NCBI GenBank assembly: GCA_021810375.1
Contig: JAJZJB010000007.1
Coordinates: forward strand, 1 to 32,142
Direction of reading: 5' to 3'
Source: Microcaldota archaeon
GTDB taxonomy: Archaea > Micrarchaeota > Micrarchaeia > Micrarchaeales > CABMGC01
Length of the DNA stretch: 32,142 bases
Below the pieces are notes generated by a model, which saw only the letters and a program-made list of their open reading frames with translations, did not search any database and was not told the DNA's origin. How positions within the stretch are numbered: position 1 is the first letter of the stretch; every line of letters begins with the position of its first letter. Position numbers and translations under genes: made by a program. Of this stretch, positions 7,291-30,231 are shown piece after piece.

Positions 7291-7803
7291 TTATCTGACC
7301 AGCCTTCTTCCGCGCTTCGCATCTGTTATGACATCATGCATCGAATATTTCAGTATTACCATGGCCTTAAGCTTATCTCGATCACCAAAGTTGTTGCGCC
7401 TCGCGAGGCGCTCTGCCTGGTCAAGCTTGTTCCTGTAGGCATTGTATGCAAACCGCGCAGCTGCAAGGGCATCGCGCTCGTGTATGCTTTCCACGGATTC
7501 CCCAGACCTTATCTCGTTCTTCTTCCTCACGCTGATATCTGAACTGGGAGTGAAGAGCACTGAATCAAAGATCGTCGCAAGCTTGGAGATTGTTGTATCG
7601 GCATGTGTCTTGTCTGTTGCTATTATCACAGGTATCCCAATGGAGCTTAGCTTGCTCGTGAACCATTCGAGGCCGACAAAACGCTCAGCTGCGGAATATA
7701 CCAGGTGCCCATTCAGATCAAGACATGCTATTGCAGCGGTCTTGCCCGTGTCTATGCCTGCTATCAGGTACCTTTTTCCTTCAGCAGAACGATCCGTTGG
7801 CAT
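7291..7803 (-). CDS. DUF460-like RNase H/RuvC-fold protein (COG2433-like)
   Basis: Begun at the ATG at 7803, this is 170 residues: MPTDRSAEGKRYLIAGIDTG opens with the first RNase H-fold strand carrying an Asp (GIDTG), followed by AAIACLDLNGHLVYS, PVIIATDKTH and HERDALAAARFAYN. These match the N-terminal nuclease-like part of archaeal DUF460 proteins, whose role is unknown. Family members are usually much longer with a coiled-coil region, so this is a short version. A longer frame to 7857 would overlap the upstream gene by 77 nt; the chosen start overlaps by 23 nt. It is probably cotranscribed with the DsbA-like gene. Confidence 0.72.
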   Translation of the reverse strand: MPTDRSAEGKRYLIAGIDTGKTAAIACLDLNGHLVYSAAERFVGLEWFTSKLSSIGIPVIIATDKTHADTTISKLATIFDSVLFTPSSDISVRKKNEIRSGESVESIHERDALAAARFAYNAYRNKLDQAERLARRNNFGDRDKLKAMVILKYSMHDVITDAKRGRRLVR

Positions 7804-9014: not shown

Positions 9015-10136
9015 TCACGCAAACGAATTGGCATTCCTTGCAGTCTCCACGATCAGCGTCTTAAGCGCCTCGAGTTCCTGAAATGTTATGGTTTCGCTTA
9101 GCGAATGAGGCATGCTGCCCCCTCTTGACATACCAAGGATTGCGAAGCCCTTGTGCTTGAGTATATTTGATTCAGTAGTTGCCCTTACCGTAGACATGGA
9201 AAACTTCAGTCCTGAGGAAGTTGCAGCTGCCTTGGCCAATGCGGCTATCTGCGTGTCTCTTCCAGTAGAGAACGGAGGCGCACCTTCCTTTACCTTCTTG
9301 GTAAATTTGTATGTGCACTTAGTCTTCTTGCAGACAGACTTCACTACGCCCTCCACTTCGGCAAGCCGCTTATCCATCTTGCTTTTTGTAAATGCCCTTA
9401 CTTCACCGCTTATTGTTGTCTTGCCCGGCACCACATTCACAACAGTACCGCCCCTGATCCTGCCGATATTAAGCGTTGAACCATCCCTGGCCTTGCCCAT
9501 GGCAAGCCTTGAGATTATCAGGCTTGCGGTCATTATGGCATTTATGCCTTTTTGCGGGGCGTATCCGGCATGTACTTCCTTGCCGTATATCTCTATATTG
9601 AAAGGTATCTGGCCAAGAGCCTGGTTGATAAATGTGCCGGCCTTGTCAGACCCGTCGAGCACGAAGATAAATTTTGTACTGTGATCCGGGGTTATGTAAT
9701 TAGCCCCCATCCTGCCGTTCTCTTCTCTTGTAGAGAAGACCATCGTGACCGTAGGCCTGTTCTTCATCTGCTTTATTTCCTTCGCCGCAGCAATCAGACA
9801 TGCAACAGCACCTTTGTTGTCTACTCCAAGGATAGTTGTGCCATCGCTTGTTATGCTGCCATGCCTTACTACCGGCTTTATCCGCTCTTTTCCTGTTTCC
9901 ACGGTATCGATGTGGGCTATGAACATTATGTGCGTCTTTCCTCCAGGTATTGTGGCTATGAGGTTGCCGCAGTTGCTGTTGTTCTTCCTTCCGGAATCAT
10001 CAAATCTGGAGGTTACTCCTGTCTTGTCAAGCCTGCCTTTTATGTATCTTGCCACCTCAAGCTCGAACCCGCTCGGAGAGGGTATCTCTACCAGGCTGAC
10101 GAATAGATCAGCAATGCTGTTGCTCAATCGTGACAC
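9015..10136 (-). CDS. M20 family metallopeptidase (PepT/deacylase-like)
   Basis: The 373-residue protein has the co-catalytic zinc ligands of M20: H75 and catalytic D77 in AHIDTV, bridging D106 in GVDNKG, E138/E139 in REENGRMGA, D161 in LDGSD, and a C-terminal His in SMPHSLSE. An inserted dimerisation domain (about 175-290) lies between the two halves. It is most like PepT/tripeptidase or acyl-amino-acid hydrolase members; substrate is not determinable. The start is GTG, 4 nt after the stop of the GNAT gene, so it appears to be last in a GNAT-GNAT-M20 unit. An acetyltransferase followed by a possible deacylase is suggestive but not proof of a shared pathway. Confidence 0.88.
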   Translation of the reverse strand: MSRLSNSIADLFVSLVEIPSPSGFELEVARYIKGRLDKTGVTSRFDDSGRKNNSNCGNLIATIPGGKTHIMFIAHIDTVETGKERIKPVVRHGSITSDGTTILGVDNKGAVACLIAAAKEIKQMKNRPTVTMVFSTREENGRMGANYITPDHSTKFIFVLDGSDKAGTFINQALGQIPFNIEIYGKEVHAGYAPQKGINAIMTASLIISRLAMGKARDGSTLNIGRIRGGTVVNVVPGKTTISGEVRAFTKSKMDKRLAEVEGVVKSVCKKTKCTYKFTKKVKEGAPPFSTGRDTQIAALAKAAATSSGLKFSMSTVRATTESNILKHKGFAILGMSRGGSMPHSLSETITFQELEALKTLIVETARNANSFA

Positions 10137-10140
10137 CTAC

Positions 10141-10650
10141 TCACTTTCTCACTGAAGGTTTAAGATTTATCGCATATACCTTGTACTCCGTTGTAGGGTC
10201 AAGTTCCATTACTGCAGGAGGGAGTTTGCCAACCTCTTCCTTTGTCAACTCCCTGAGCCCCAGGCCGAGAAGGATCGATGTCCCGTTGCTGTTAGCGTTC
10301 TTTACAGCTATGAAAGTAAGAGCCTCGCCATCCCAATGGTCCGTGTTTGATGTCAACTCTTCGAATAGCGCACCTTTCAGGTAATATCCGAGGTTGTTTT
10401 TCCGATGCTCAGGGGTAACGTAGTGCGATCTTCCCTCAATCAGGCCTGGCTGCCATACCGAAGCACCCTGATACCCTATTATCTGACCCTCGAACTCTGC
10501 GATGAATGAATGGCCATTAGCGGTCCACTGTGCTAGCGTTTCTTTGCTCACAGGCAGTACCGCACCGTTCTTCTCCTGCCGGAGCAACGCTGCAATGGCT
10601 GGTATGTCGTCATTTGTAGCCTTTCTTATAACATAGCCTTTTAACATCAT
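10141..10650 (-). CDS. GNAT family N-acetyltransferase
   Basis: From ATG 10650 this is 169 residues. The start VIRKATNDDIPAIAALL is the typical GNAT N-terminus, SFIAEFEGQIIGYQGASVW is strands 2-4, and VTPEHRKNNLGYYLKGALFEEL is the acetyl-CoA pyrophosphate-binding loop (usual Q/RxxGxG/A, here RKNNLGYY, somewhat divergent). The acceptor is unknown. A GTG at 10659 also opens the frame, but AAGTGA lies at ribosome-site distance before ATG 10650. It follows the short GNAT-like gene with almost no gap and precedes the M20 peptidase by 4 nt. Confidence 0.8.
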   Translation of the reverse strand: MMLKGYVIRKATNDDIPAIAALLRQEKNGAVLPVSKETLAQWTANGHSFIAEFEGQIIGYQGASVWQPGLIEGRSHYVTPEHRKNNLGYYLKGALFEELTSNTDHWDGEALTFIAVKNANSNGTSILLGLGLRELTKEEVGKLPPAVMELDPTTEYKVYAINLKPSVRK

Positions 10651-10655
10651 TGGAT

Positions 10656-10934
10656 TCACTTTTCGCAGCCGTAGCCGATATACGGATCGATAAGGGTTCC
10701 GTCCCTTGCGGCCTTGAGCAGGTCTTTTATCTCTTCATGCCCTTGAGCTACAACTTCGTGGCTTGGGCTACTGTAGCCCACCACTTCCCCGTTCTTTACC
10801 GCAAGTAGCCGTGGACCGGGGCGGGAGAAATCTGCTTTTGCAGCGCAAGGATCTATGCGCAACAGTGATGCTATCTGATCAAGATCCCTGATGCTTGCCG
10901 TGTTTATCGAAACGTCTCGTGGTAGAAATTTCAT
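10656..10934 (-). CDS. short GNAT-like protein, apparently N-terminal half only
   Basis: From ATG 10934 this is 92 residues. The segment INTASIRDLDQIASLLRID followed by RLLAVKNGEVVGYSSPS resembles the first two elements of a GNAT fold. The acetyl-CoA loop and the C-terminal half are absent; it ends with a helix and GYGCEK. It may be a truncated acetyltransferase, a small partner of the following full-length GNAT, or an unrelated fold. The frame is open upstream to 11117, but that part is AT-rich and holds the promoter and palindromes. GGTAAG lies upstream as a ribosome site. Confidence 0.65.
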   Translation of the reverse strand: MKFLPRDVSINTASIRDLDQIASLLRIDPCAAKADFSRPGPRLLAVKNGEVVGYSSPSHEVVAQGHEEIKDLLKAARDGTLIDPYIGYGCEK

Positions 10935-10992
10935 ATACTTACCTTCACATCTATTTTGAGAAAAGTTGTTTATTAATTTTATGTCGTATTTG

Positions 10993-11003
10993 TTATAAAT
11001 TAG
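10993..11003 (-). promoter_or_regulatory. TATA-like element of the GNAT/M20 unit
   Basis: The minus-strand sequence TAATTTATAAC would place the start near 10972, giving a leader of about 37 nt before ATG 10934. Two palindromes lie directly upstream. Confidence 0.5.
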
Positions 11004-11009
11004 GCCTAT

Positions 11010-11049
11010 ACTGTTCCATATGAGACAGTTGAATCCAGTCGACTGGATT
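11010..11049. repeat. two adjacent palindromes in the GNAT/M20 promoter
   Basis: The first (11010-11029) is an imperfect 20-bp dyad with arms ACTGT/ACAGT around CATATG. The second (11032-11049) is a perfect 18-bp dyad, AATCCAGTCGACTGGATT. Their centres are 21 bp apart, two helical turns, just upstream of the TATA-like element. A 9-nt direct copy, CTGGATTTG, recurs at 11043 and 11103. These sit in the 334-nt gene-free stretch 10935-11268. Apart from a second TATA-like ATATATAAAA near 11090, which reads on either strand, I see nothing else there. Confidence 0.6.
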
Positions 11050-11268
11050 TGGCCATTGCATATCAAGTAACATATATCTCTCTTGTCATATATAAAACGA
11101 GGCTGGATTTGCCACAATTTACACTGTTGTTTGTAGATTTGTAGCCTGCCGTCCTTAAGTTATTTAGCGATATCTTAATAGGCATCCCTGGGATTCATCC
11201 CTTGAGTTGCCAATGTGTGGATGCAGTCCGTGGCGTATGGATCACTTGTAATTGCAGCGCTGCACCTT

Positions 11269-11874
11269 TTACCCCTGCCTATGTGCAGCTGCAAGCACGT
11301 ATCCGGCATCCTTGGCTTCCCCATATGCGCCTTTCGTCAGAACATAGGCGTATCTTCCGGAGGGACTCTCCAGCTCAAGGCCCATCCCAAGGACCTCGTC
11401 GAGCGGAACCCAGGCAAACCCCTTTTTGGGAAGCAACCTATATCCTTGGCTCCTCTTATTCTTTATCATTACAACTGTTGCAGAGGGATCTTTCTCGAAT
11501 ATCGCCCTTATTATGCTATCGGACATGTTGCCGTAGACACCCAGGCCCCTGTAGCGAGACTGCACCACAATCGACCTTATTTCAAAGCAATGGCTGGACC
11601 ACCTGATCACTGCTGTGTGTGCGGCTGCCTTATCGCCTTCGCTGTGGTCTCTTGCAATAAAGGAATCTGCACTGCCCGAACGGATCCAACCGGCTACATG
11701 CTCGTACGTAACGGCATTGACCGCACCGGATGCTTCATGTTCTTCGTTTACCATCCTGACTATTGCCTTTACGTCGCTAGCACGATGTGCCACTTCTAGC
11801 CCGATGTCATAGCATGCTCCGCGCATGCGCGGAAACTTTGGCTCTATCAGTGCGATCCTGCCTGTCATAGCCAT
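11269..11874 (-). CDS. GNAT family N-acetyltransferase
   Basis: The 201-residue protein has a clear motif A, IRSIVVQSRYRGLGVYGNM (Q-x-x-x-G-x-G type), after a variable N-terminal half, and a C-terminal strand-helix RLLPKKGFAWVPLDEVLG where many GNATs read GFxxxG. The substrate is unknown. It starts 1 nt after the stop of the 87-residue gene, so the two are a tight pair. With the two GNAT-like genes downstream it makes three in about 1.7 kb, but sequences differ enough that recent duplication is not obvious. Confidence 0.78.
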   Translation of the reverse strand: MAMTGRIALIEPKFPRMRGACYDIGLEVAHRASDVKAIVRMVNEEHEASGAVNAVTYEHVAGWIRSGSADSFIARDHSEGDKAAAHTAVIRWSSHCFEIRSIVVQSRYRGLGVYGNMSDSIIRAIFEKDPSATVVMIKNKRSQGYRLLPKKGFAWVPLDEVLGMGLELESPSGRYAYVLTKGAYGEAKDAGYVLAAAHRQG

Positions 11875-11875
11875 C

Positions 11876-12139
11876 TTATCTTATGTAAGAAGGAATCTCG
11901 GATGGATCGTATGCCTTGCCTGTGTCCGGTGCATTGTTGGCAGCATCGGGCTTGGCAAAGCGTATTACCATCGTATTCCTCTTGTTCTTAGGAAACTGGA
12001 ATGTCAGCACCGGATTGTGCTCCTCTATGAACTTGCTGAGTTCCTCCGCCGTTTCCGGGTCGTCGAAGTCTACAGGGAGTTCTATCTTTCCATCCTCCTC
12101 CAGGCTTAGACTCTCCTTTGCGTTTTTCTTCGCAGGCAT
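11876..12139 (-). CDS. hypothetical acidic protein, 87 aa
   Basis: I do not recognise this family. It begins with a basic stretch (MPAKKNAKES), then a strongly acidic part (FDDPETAEELSKFIEEHNP), then VLTFQFPKNKRNTMVIRF. It has no membrane segment or Cys. A strong ribosome site AAGGTGA 5 nt before the ATG and a TATA-like element about 47 nt upstream support expression. It is immediately followed by the GNAT gene; it could be a partner or substrate, but that is only inferred from spacing. Confidence 0.7.
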   Translation of the reverse strand: MPAKKNAKESLSLEEDGKIELPVDFDDPETAEELSKFIEEHNPVLTFQFPKNKRNTMVIRFAKPDAANNAPDTGKAYDPSEIPSYIR

Positions 12140-12180: not shown

Positions 12181-12191
12181 CATATATTAAG
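12181..12191 (-). promoter_or_regulatory. TATA-like element of the 87-aa/GNAT pair
   Basis: The minus-strand sequence CTTAATATATG places the start near 12160, a 20-nt leader with AAGGTGA before ATG 12139. Confidence 0.5.
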
Positions 12192-12241
12192 AATGCGGCA
12201 AGAATGATACAATATGAGCTCTCTATGTTTCATATGATACA

Positions 12242-12250
12242 TTTATATAT
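12242..12250 (+). promoter_or_regulatory. TATA box of the ACT-domain gene
   Basis: TTTATATAT is centred about 25 nt before ATG 12271, which argues for a leaderless start there instead of the in-frame GTG at 12262. Confidence 0.6.
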
Positions 12251-12270: not shown

Positions 12271-12864
12271 ATGAGCATCTCAGATACGGTTAGGGTATAC
12301 CTGAAAAACAAGCCATATACGCAGGAGGCCCTGGAATATGGAATTGTGAACTTCAGCGCCCTCGCAAGGCTGATACAAAAGGAGTTGGGAATAAAGAACT
12401 ACCAGGCGATCAAGGCAGCGATAAGGAGATACGCGGAGCACATGGAATCGGTCAAGGGCAGCATCGAGAACCGGGCGCTACGTGTGCTGAAGGAGAACAG
12501 GATCGCACTGCTCGACGGCGTACATGTAATTGTGTCAAGCGAGGAATTGGGCATTAATAACGACGCAAAGGTAAAGATAGACGAGTATTACGTATACCTC
12601 ACGAGGAAGGACGTGCTAAAAGGGCTTGGCAAGAAAGCAAGGTCCAGCATAGTAAAGGTCAATGACAATTGCTCCACTTTAGTGATATATTCTGGCGAGA
12701 ACCTTGAGAGCGGGTCTGGAGTAGTAGCTTTCCTCACCTCCCTGCTCGCCGAGCAGAACATAAACGTGGTGGAACTGATATCATGTTACACTGAAACGAT
12801 AATAGTAGTAAACAAGGAAGACGCCTTGAGAAGCTACGAACTACTCTCAGGGATAGTAAGATAA
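12271..12864 (+). CDS. ACT-domain protein with N-terminal helical domain
   Basis: From ATG 12271 this is 197 residues. The first third is helical (SALARLIQKELGIKNYQAIKAAIRRYAEHM) and looks like a wHTH or winged-helix-like domain. The C-terminal part, VVAFLTSLLAEQNINVVELISCYTETIIVVNKEDALRSYELL, closely resembles the ACT fold of aspartate kinases. ACT domains bind amino acids or other small ligands, so an amino-acid-sensing regulator is a reasonable guess; no catalytic domain is present. It is a single gene diverging from the 87-aa/GNAT pair and followed convergently by argS. Confidence 0.75.
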   Translation: MSISDTVRVYLKNKPYTQEALEYGIVNFSALARLIQKELGIKNYQAIKAAIRRYAEHMESVKGSIENRALRVLKENRIALLDGVHVIVSSEELGINNDAKVKIDEYYVYLTRKDVLKGLGKKARSSIVKVNDNCSTLVIYSGENLESGSGVVAFLTSLLAEQNINVVELISCYTETIIVVNKEDALRSYELLSGIVR

Positions 12865-28904: not shown

Positions 28905-29011
28905 GTCAAATTGCTGCGCTTGGCACTTTGAAGTCGTAACCGCCGACAGAGTAATGCCTTTAGATTTACAAAATAACTAAAAGGCCTTGATATTGTGTAA
29001 AAGTTTTGTGT

Positions 29012-29021
29012 GCTTTAAATA
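29012..29021 (+). promoter_or_regulatory. TATA box of the Lrp-like gene
   Basis: GCTTTAAATA predicts a start near 29043, 10 nt before ATG 29053; it excludes the upstream in-frame ATG at 28987. Confidence 0.55.
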
Positions 29022-29052
29022 TGAGAAAATTCACTTTCCTTGTGTCACACTG

Positions 29053-30231
29053 ATGCTGGCGATACCAATGGCCACAACCCCAAATAAAGAGGCCCCACCG
29101 AAGGCCGCATTCAATAGGGAAGCGAAAGATAGGATAGGCACTGCAATATTGCGCGAATTGAGCATGGATGCAAGGCAGAGCCTTAGCGCAATGGCTGAGA
29201 AGACAGGCGCAAGCAAGACTGCAGTCTTCAACGAATTGAACAGTTTGATAGAGCAGAAGGACATAAAGTTTGTTCCAGAGATAAACCTGGAGGAATTGTG
29301 GAGGCACGAGCTGCTTTATACAACCAAATGGATGCAGAAGAGGGAATTCAGGCAGTTGGATATACACCAGATAGGCTTCACCGAATACGTTGGATTTGTC
29401 AAGTTCATTGGAAAGAAACCGAGCGATGAAGAGATAGCCAAGGCGGTCAGAGCCTCATATATACCGCAGAATGTATCTGCAGTATATGGCAGGTACGACC
29501 TCTTCATGTACCTTGTTGCAAGAGATCATGCAGACATAAATGTCTTTGTAAACGCCTTCAACAAGAGCCTTCCAGGCTACAAGATGATAGTCAGGATAAG
29601 GCCTGTCAGGAAGAGCTTTGGCTTCTTCCCGCTTAGGAACGAACTCATAGAGCAGTTCAAGCTGCCTGAGAAATACAAGAAGCTTCTGGTGTCACTGAAC
29701 AATGGCTCTAGGGGCCAGCTCGGCCAGGGCCAGGAGCCGGACAAGAATGCCATTACATACATATACAAGACATTGATTGAGTACGGGATAGTAAGCCGGA
29801 CGACTATGTATATGAGGAACCCTGACAACGGTTTTGCAGGAATAATATCCTACAGCATAGTAGACCACCAGCAGTTCCAGAAGAGCAAGTACAAGTGGTT
29901 CGAGCATCTCGTGAAGATGGACGGCAATAAGTTGGGAACTTATACGTTTATGGCTGATGTCCACGAACCCTATGGAGGGATAATAATAGCCAATGCCAAG
30001 AACGCGGCGTGCTTTGAGGGCATCAAGAAGTCTATAGAAAGCTTAAGGCTCGGAATAGAGGTCGAGAGCATGATATTCTCCAGGCAGATCATTGGCGAAC
30101 TTGGGGTGCGGAACTTCGATCTCAGGTACTCAAACCAGTACGGCATGCTAGCCACAGAAGGCCTTGTGCCGAAAGTATGCACGGACAGGTATGCAAAGGA
30201 GCGTGCAAAGCAGGCATACATAGAGATATGA
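29053..30231 (+). CDS. long Lrp/AsnC-like regulator with two effector-type halves
   Basis: From ATG 29053 this is 392 residues, more than twice a normal Lrp. A winged-helix N-terminus (about 25-75: IGTAILRELSMDARQSLSAMAEKTGASKTAVFNELNSL) is followed by a RAM-like half with YGRYDLFMYLVARDHADINVFVNAFNKSLPGYKMI. A Gly/Gln-rich linker (NGSRGQLGQGQEPDK) leads to a second half starting with a helical NAITYIYKTLIEYGIVSRTTMY and another RAM-like stretch, GTYTFMADVHEPYGGIIIANAKNAACFEGIKKSIESL. A pseudo-dimer in one chain is a reasonable reading. Target and ligand are unknown. A start at ATG 29068 is also possible. Confidence 0.72.
   Translation: MLAIPMATTPNKEAPPKAAFNREAKDRIGTAILRELSMDARQSLSAMAEKTGASKTAVFNELNSLIEQKDIKFVPEINLEELWRHELLYTTKWMQKREFRQLDIHQIGFTEYVGFVKFIGKKPSDEEIAKAVRASYIPQNVSAVYGRYDLFMYLVARDHADINVFVNAFNKSLPGYKMIVRIRPVRKSFGFFPLRNELIEQFKLPEKYKKLLVSLNNGSRGQLGQGQEPDKNAITYIYKTLIEYGIVSRTTMYMRNPDNGFAGIISYSIVDHQQFQKSKYKWFEHLVKMDGNKLGTYTFMADVHEPYGGIIIANAKNAACFEGIKKSIESLRLGIEVESMIFSRQIIGELGVRNFDLRYSNQYGMLATEGLVPKVCTDRYAKERAKQAYIEI

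Follow-up and report, generated by a model that had tools for sequence, protein, structure and literature searches.

The stretch of DNA analyzed here (the window) comprises 32,142 nucleotides and is contig 6 in the genome assembly of a Microcaldota archaeon, 601 kb in length and 64% complete; G003, the closest relative, shares 91% identity with it over 17 kb. On the reverse strand of the window are two operons with GNAT or GNAT-like genes, one of which also encodes an M20-family deacylase, and the gene of an ACT-domain protein diverges from the other (Table 1).

Table 1. Genes and predicted regulatory features of the locus (positions are those of the window).
Feature	Position	Strand	Remarks
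M20-family deacylase/peptidase (PepT-like, ArgE/DapE-related)	9015-10136	-	PF01546, PF07687
GNAT acetyltransferase	10141-10659	-	PF00583 above cut-off
92-aa ORF, first gene of operon	10656-10934	-	GNAT-N-terminus-like; 95% identical in G003
Probable TATA box of GNAT/M20 operon, TTAATAAA	10969-10976	-	5 bp past secondary operator B
Predicted secondary (degenerate) operator B, TATAACAAATACGACA	10982-10997	-	30 bp from primary; 15/16 bases in G003
Predicted primary operator B, TGTCTCATATGGAACA read toward operon	11012-11027	-	matrix 21.2; 15/16 bases in G003
Perfect 18-bp dyad, AATCCAGTCGACTGGATT	11032-11049		probable chance palindrome outside the system; 4/9 pairs in G003
GNAT-like protein (GNAT0)	11269-11874	-	weak PF00583, E 0.017; beside ACT gene in relatives too
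87-aa ORF, first gene of operon A	11876-12139	-	no family above cut-off
Probable TATA box of 11876/GNAT operon, TTAATATA	12183-12190	-	fixed distance from operators
Predicted secondary operator A, TGTATCATTCTTGCCG	12196-12211	-	same +30 offset
Predicted primary operator A, TGTTTCATATGATACA	12226-12241		matrix 23.0; fully kept in G003
Probable TATA box of ACT gene, TTTATATA	12242-12249	+	abuts primary operator A; kept in G003
Candidate regulator, DUF7523 + ACT	12271-12864	+	N-terminal four-helix region + C-terminal ACT region

The M20 protein also has matches to TIGR01883 and TIGR01910 below cut-off, and the 87-aa ORF shows the codon-position pattern of a real gene in the comparison with G003. 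A long upstream extension of the 92-aa ORF from a TTG at 11117 was disfavored because the SD-like motif GAAGGT lies ahead of the ATG at 10934. This ORF is distantly similar to short ORFs of related arginine clusters (hhalign E=1e-4, probability 57%), which likewise resemble a GNAT N-terminus (L108:6798-7100, L136:6733-7074, L139:6083-6421, L140:6604-6942). These short ORFs (92-113 aa) are without a Pfam match and resemble one another only distantly; possibly, they are regulatory half-GNAT partners. Rfam searches identified tRNA only. The non-coding stretch 11111-11165 between the two GNAT operons is 91% identical to G003, with less conserved flanks, and is perhaps a terminator or small RNA.

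A sequence-only reading had described the perfect dyad and an imperfect 20-bp dyad (ACTGTTCCATATGAGACAGT, 11010-11029, 8 of 10 positions paired) with centers 21 bp apart, and had proposed that they are two dimer sites on the same DNA face upstream of the GNAT/peptidase operon. The geometry is as it was described, and the 9-bp direct repeat that it also reported, CTGGATTTG, is found at 11043 and again at 11103, 60 bp apart. The pair of dyads was chosen post hoc, however, and a perfect arm of at least 9 is found in 17% of dinucleotide-shuffled windows (mean 0.17), making the perfect dyad only mildly unusual. Dyads with at least 8 of 10 positions paired number 16 in the window versus 14.4 expected from shuffles, and the imperfect dyad is thus unremarkable alone. 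By sequence alone the dyad finding is weak, and comparison with relatives was the sole means of telling the two dyads apart.

That comparison reversed their ranking, with the eye-catching perfect palindrome apparently being the wrong one. Its counterpart in G003, AACTCGGTCGGGTGGATT, has 5 of 18 bases changed and retains 4 of 9 pairs, whereas the core of the imperfect dyad (11012-11027, TGTTCCATATGAGACA) keeps 15 of its 16 bases. Genome-wide, the perfect 18-mer has no other copy within two mismatches, nor was one found in an exact contig search, whereas the imperfect core has one, 12226-12241, which lies between the ACT-domain gene and the divergent GNAT operon and is the only other genomic site within two mismatches. 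Because the perfect dyad has neither a second genomic copy nor a conserved counterpart in the nearest relative, it is probably a chance palindrome, and these findings together with the shuffles led us to reject it as an operator. The 9-bp repeat, although present, is not conserved in G003 and was also rejected as an element. Perfect symmetry and a location 5 bp off the predicted primary operator B would suit the 18-bp dyad being a functional site of a second regulator, recently gained in this lineage, but its decay in G003, its single copy in the genome, the frequency of equally long dyads in shuffles, and the decay in G003 of two further perfect 16-bp palindromes of the window (7396-7411 and 11818-11833) make this very improbable. 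The contrast between the two dyads in one close relative is indecisive by itself (at a substitution rate of 0.18, at least 5 changes in 18 bases have p 0.21 and at most 1 in 16 has p 0.19), so that the decisive evidence is the wider comparison.

In the wider comparison, the imperfect-dyad core emerges as a member of a conserved family of predicted operators with the consensus TGTATCAWATGATACA, so that the earlier proposal of a regulatory palindrome before the GNAT/peptidase operon is supported. Lack of conservation, which the sequence-only reading had named as grounds for refutation, thus applies to the perfect dyad and not to the imperfect one. Orthologs of the ACT gene in 60 relatives are often preceded by a matching palindrome, such as TGTATCAAATGATACA, TGTATCATATGGAACA and TGTACCAAATGATACA. 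A symmetric matrix was built from 17 such sites in ACT-gene promoters of relatives, with the window's genome (G000) and G003 excluded, and its top two matches in the 32 kb were 12226 and 11012, compared with a score of 9.9 for the next, non-operator match. Since the training sites were picked by eye, the matrix was retested on 20 genomes outside the training set. Ten of 19 ACT promoters in those genomes score at least 17, whereas column-permuted matrices gave 0.03 on average, and 19 matches of at least that score were found in 195 kb, versus about 1.2 per Mb at random. Some ACT promoters, for example those of G198 and G016, are without a good site. Sites scoring at least 19 were found in 15 of 23 genomes with the ACT gene versus 3 of 37 without it (p 4e-6), the few strong sites in the latter group being in G022, G028 and G055. 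In G022, identical operator-like sites lie inside two large neighboring ORFs (L117, G022:C11, at 4124 and 6784) and probably belong to a coding stretch that occurs there as repeat copies.

Searches of 60 genomes with the pattern TGTNNCANNTGNNACA gave 65 sites outside the window's own genome, 15 of which lie no more than 5 kb from an ACT gene versus 0.27 expected. Across whole genomes, the pattern occurs no more often than a reversed control, and the regulon therefore appears to be small and local. Only two operators were found in the window's genome, where the remaining near matches are at control level and no genome-wide regulon was seen; one near match, C25:4207, was rejected as an operator, as it sits within an ORF.

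The predicted operators also have a fixed architecture. When 29 promoters were aligned on the primary site, a second match peak occurred exactly 30 bp toward the gene, with a matrix mean of -2.8 at that offset versus a background of -23.9 (sd 2.8). Target promoters consist of a strong site, 14 bp, a weaker site, 5 bp, and a TATA part that is present in most of the 29; the position of 10969-10976 matches TTTATATA or TTAATATA in most of those aligned. The idea of two dimer sites on the same DNA face is thereby retained with a different partner, as the predicted second site is 10982-10997, three helical turns away, and not the perfect dyad at 21 bp. The TATA-like element that had been placed about 7 bp from the dyads overlaps this weaker operator, to which we reassigned it given the +30 offset peak and the aligned TATA. 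The proposed likeness to archaeal Lrp-type activators gained support from the offset peak and the constant TATA distance: the dimer site of such activators lies a few bp upstream of the BRE in a highly constrained position, and neighboring sites of archaeal Lrp proteins are two or three turns apart (PMC2995911). Primary operator A is common to the divergent ACT gene and 11876/GNAT operon and is kept before ACT orthologs in many relatives. Site position varies at the ACT gene, being mostly about 30 bp or less than 10 bp from its start codon in other genomes, and either would block the ACT promoter.

Many of the genes behind these sites point to arginine metabolism. In related Micrarchaeota, operator sites precede argG in G026, G005 and G137, argH-argG in G012, ornithine carbamoyltransferase in G031 and arginine deiminase in G001, as well as many GNAT and M20 operons in relatives, including GNATs adjoining M20 deacylases. 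NCBIfam labels for the genes behind the sites are argininosuccinate synthase, argininosuccinate lyase, ornithine carbamoyltransferase, arginine deiminase and ArgE/DapE-type deacylases. Among 60 genomes, ArgG is found in 13 relatives, every one of which carries the ACT gene too (p 2e-7), and the two genes are nearly always within a few kb of each other, mostly adjacent. No ArgG was found in the 64% complete assembly of the window's genome. In some relatives (G015, G019, G031 and G034; loci L113, L108, L111 and L128), the ACT gene is present but no ArgG was found in the assembly, which would point to arginine pathways of a partial or salvage type or to gaps in the assemblies. The literature searched, which took in few subscription journals, yielded no report of an arginine regulator or operator in archaea.

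The ACT-domain protein of the window, which the sequence-only reading had listed among its candidate regulators, is favored by this gene linkage and by its own domains. It matches PF24367 (DUF7523) with 36.9 bits and PF13840 (ACT_7) with 34.3 bits (curated cut-off 27 each), and all 20 aligned orthologs match both at E<0.5. Lrp/AsnC families are absent among the Pfam matches of the 20 orthologs up to E 0.5, and the protein has no ArgR match. Its AF2 model has a pLDDT of 86 (94 for the N-terminal four-helix domain), and the modeled C-terminal fold resembles the amino-acid-binding regulatory ACT regions of aspartate kinases, which would fit amino-acid sensing. A profile search of PDB sequences returned no match. 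Because the N-terminal domain had no fold match among PDB structures at E<0.001, the case for DNA binding comes from gene linkage and helix layout; the invariant residues of this domain include A46, K48, A49 and R53, and the helix bearing them would read DNA. A distant second DUF7523/ACT paralog is present in the window's genome (G000:C5:33863-34513, L132), with similar ones in several relatives. The protein can be likened by description to COG2150, an archaeal family titled 'predicted regulator of amino acid metabolism, contains ACT domain'. In the literature searched, COG2150 appears in one paper, solely as a list entry among euryarchaeal families (PMC1852104), and DUF7523 had no mention in that same literature with its few subscription journals.

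From the operator family, its fixed architecture and its linkage to the ACT gene and arginine genes, all of which are features of sequence, we infer protein binding, arginine as ligand and the sign of regulation. The 11012-11027 site and its partner likely form one operator, of two in all, in a local arginine regulon whose likely cognate regulator is encoded 1.2 kb away. This site would be the strong half of the tandem operator for the operon 10934-9015 (small ORF, GNAT and M20 deacylase), and a second tandem operator, 12196-12241, would control the divergent 11876/GNAT operon and the ACT gene. One dimer of the regulator, most likely the ACT-domain protein, with arginine as its likely signal, would occupy the strong palindrome, and a second would bind cooperatively to the weak copy 30 bp nearer the promoter. 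The proximal dimer, directly upstream of the BRE/TATA, probably helps to recruit TBP/TFB, whereas the strong site that abuts the TATA at the ACT gene would block transcription. We consider it quite probable that the tandem operators serve two promoters of an arginine regulon and that the ACT protein is a ligand-responsive regulator that activates the enzyme operons and represses itself. Activation at the former and repression at the latter are favored because of the Lrp-type activator geometry and the precedent of Tar, an archaeal amino-acid regulator that binds palindromes upstream of the BRE/TATA and activates (PMC6737238). A more far-reaching proposal, to which we give a little less than even weight, is that DUF7523-ACT proteins are dedicated DPANN arginine regulators that bind a defined tandem operator through a DNA-binding domain not named before and that work in two modes, recruiting basal factors at enzyme operons and shutting their own promoter.

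The main rival to activation at the enzyme operons shares the operators and the regulator, and takes the latter as an arginine-dependent repressor everywhere, comparable to TrpY with tryptophan, with the proximal site blocking TFB/BRE. This is a real, if less probable, alternative, as the secondary operator lies over the BRE region and stops 5 bp short of the TATA, the ACT-gene site abuts the TATA or is no more than about 10 bp from the start codon, and the divergent regulator and enzyme genes with common boxes recall trpY/trpE, which are repressed by TrpY (PMC6737238). However, at the targets the 30-bp spacing and the distance to the TATA are constant, which suits a blocker less well than an activator in contact with TBP/TFB (PMC2995911), and site position is variable at the ACT gene only. 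Possibly, a different protein, for example one that is Lrp- or AbrB-like, binds the operators and controls the ACT and arginine genes, with the ACT protein acting otherwise. The N-terminal domain of the ACT protein has no recognized DNA-binding fold match, and the window encodes an AsnC-type HTH protein (28987-30231, weak match), but the sites track the presence of the ACT gene across genomes and adjoin it, and we regard this explanation as unlikely. That all the dyads are chance and the common motif is AT-rich promoter sequence would agree with imperfect dyads of such quality being as frequent in shuffles; against the held-out validation, the permuted-matrix control and the +30 offset peak, it has next to no plausibility.

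Little is known of the control of arginine synthesis in archaea. With regulation by the ACT protein as the preferred reading, the DUF7523-ACT family of unknown function gains a candidate pathway, operator and promoter grammar conserved across many genera, and claims about a group of tiny, symbiont-type archaea as yet hard to study in the laboratory become directly testable.

The proposed system has partial counterparts among known regulators. Bacterial ArgR/AhrC also use paired palindromic operators before arginine genes, although the ArgR family (Arg_repressor, PF01316) is absent from all 60 relatives. Bacterial paired ARG boxes differ from the present operators in box and spacing. TrpY of Methanothermobacter and Tar of Thermococcus (TK0271) are regulators that act locally in an amino-acid pathway, as is proposed for the candidate described here, and their sites at target operons are palindromic or box-type; the TrpY gene is divergent from its target operon and is also under TrpY control (PMC6737238). 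Both differ in acting on aromatic amino acids, the Tar box is TGGACA-N8-TGTCCA, and the ACT protein is set beside them by description. The ACT protein is also distinct from the Lrp-type activators Ptr2, LysM and Ss-LrpB in having no AsnC/Lrp match, an N-terminal DUF7523 in place of the Lrp winged helix, and a link to the arginine pathway. Nonetheless, its predicted operators share with theirs a serial arrangement of palindromic dimer sites two or three helical turns apart, of which the one nearest the gene sits at a constrained position directly before the BRE (PMC2995911).
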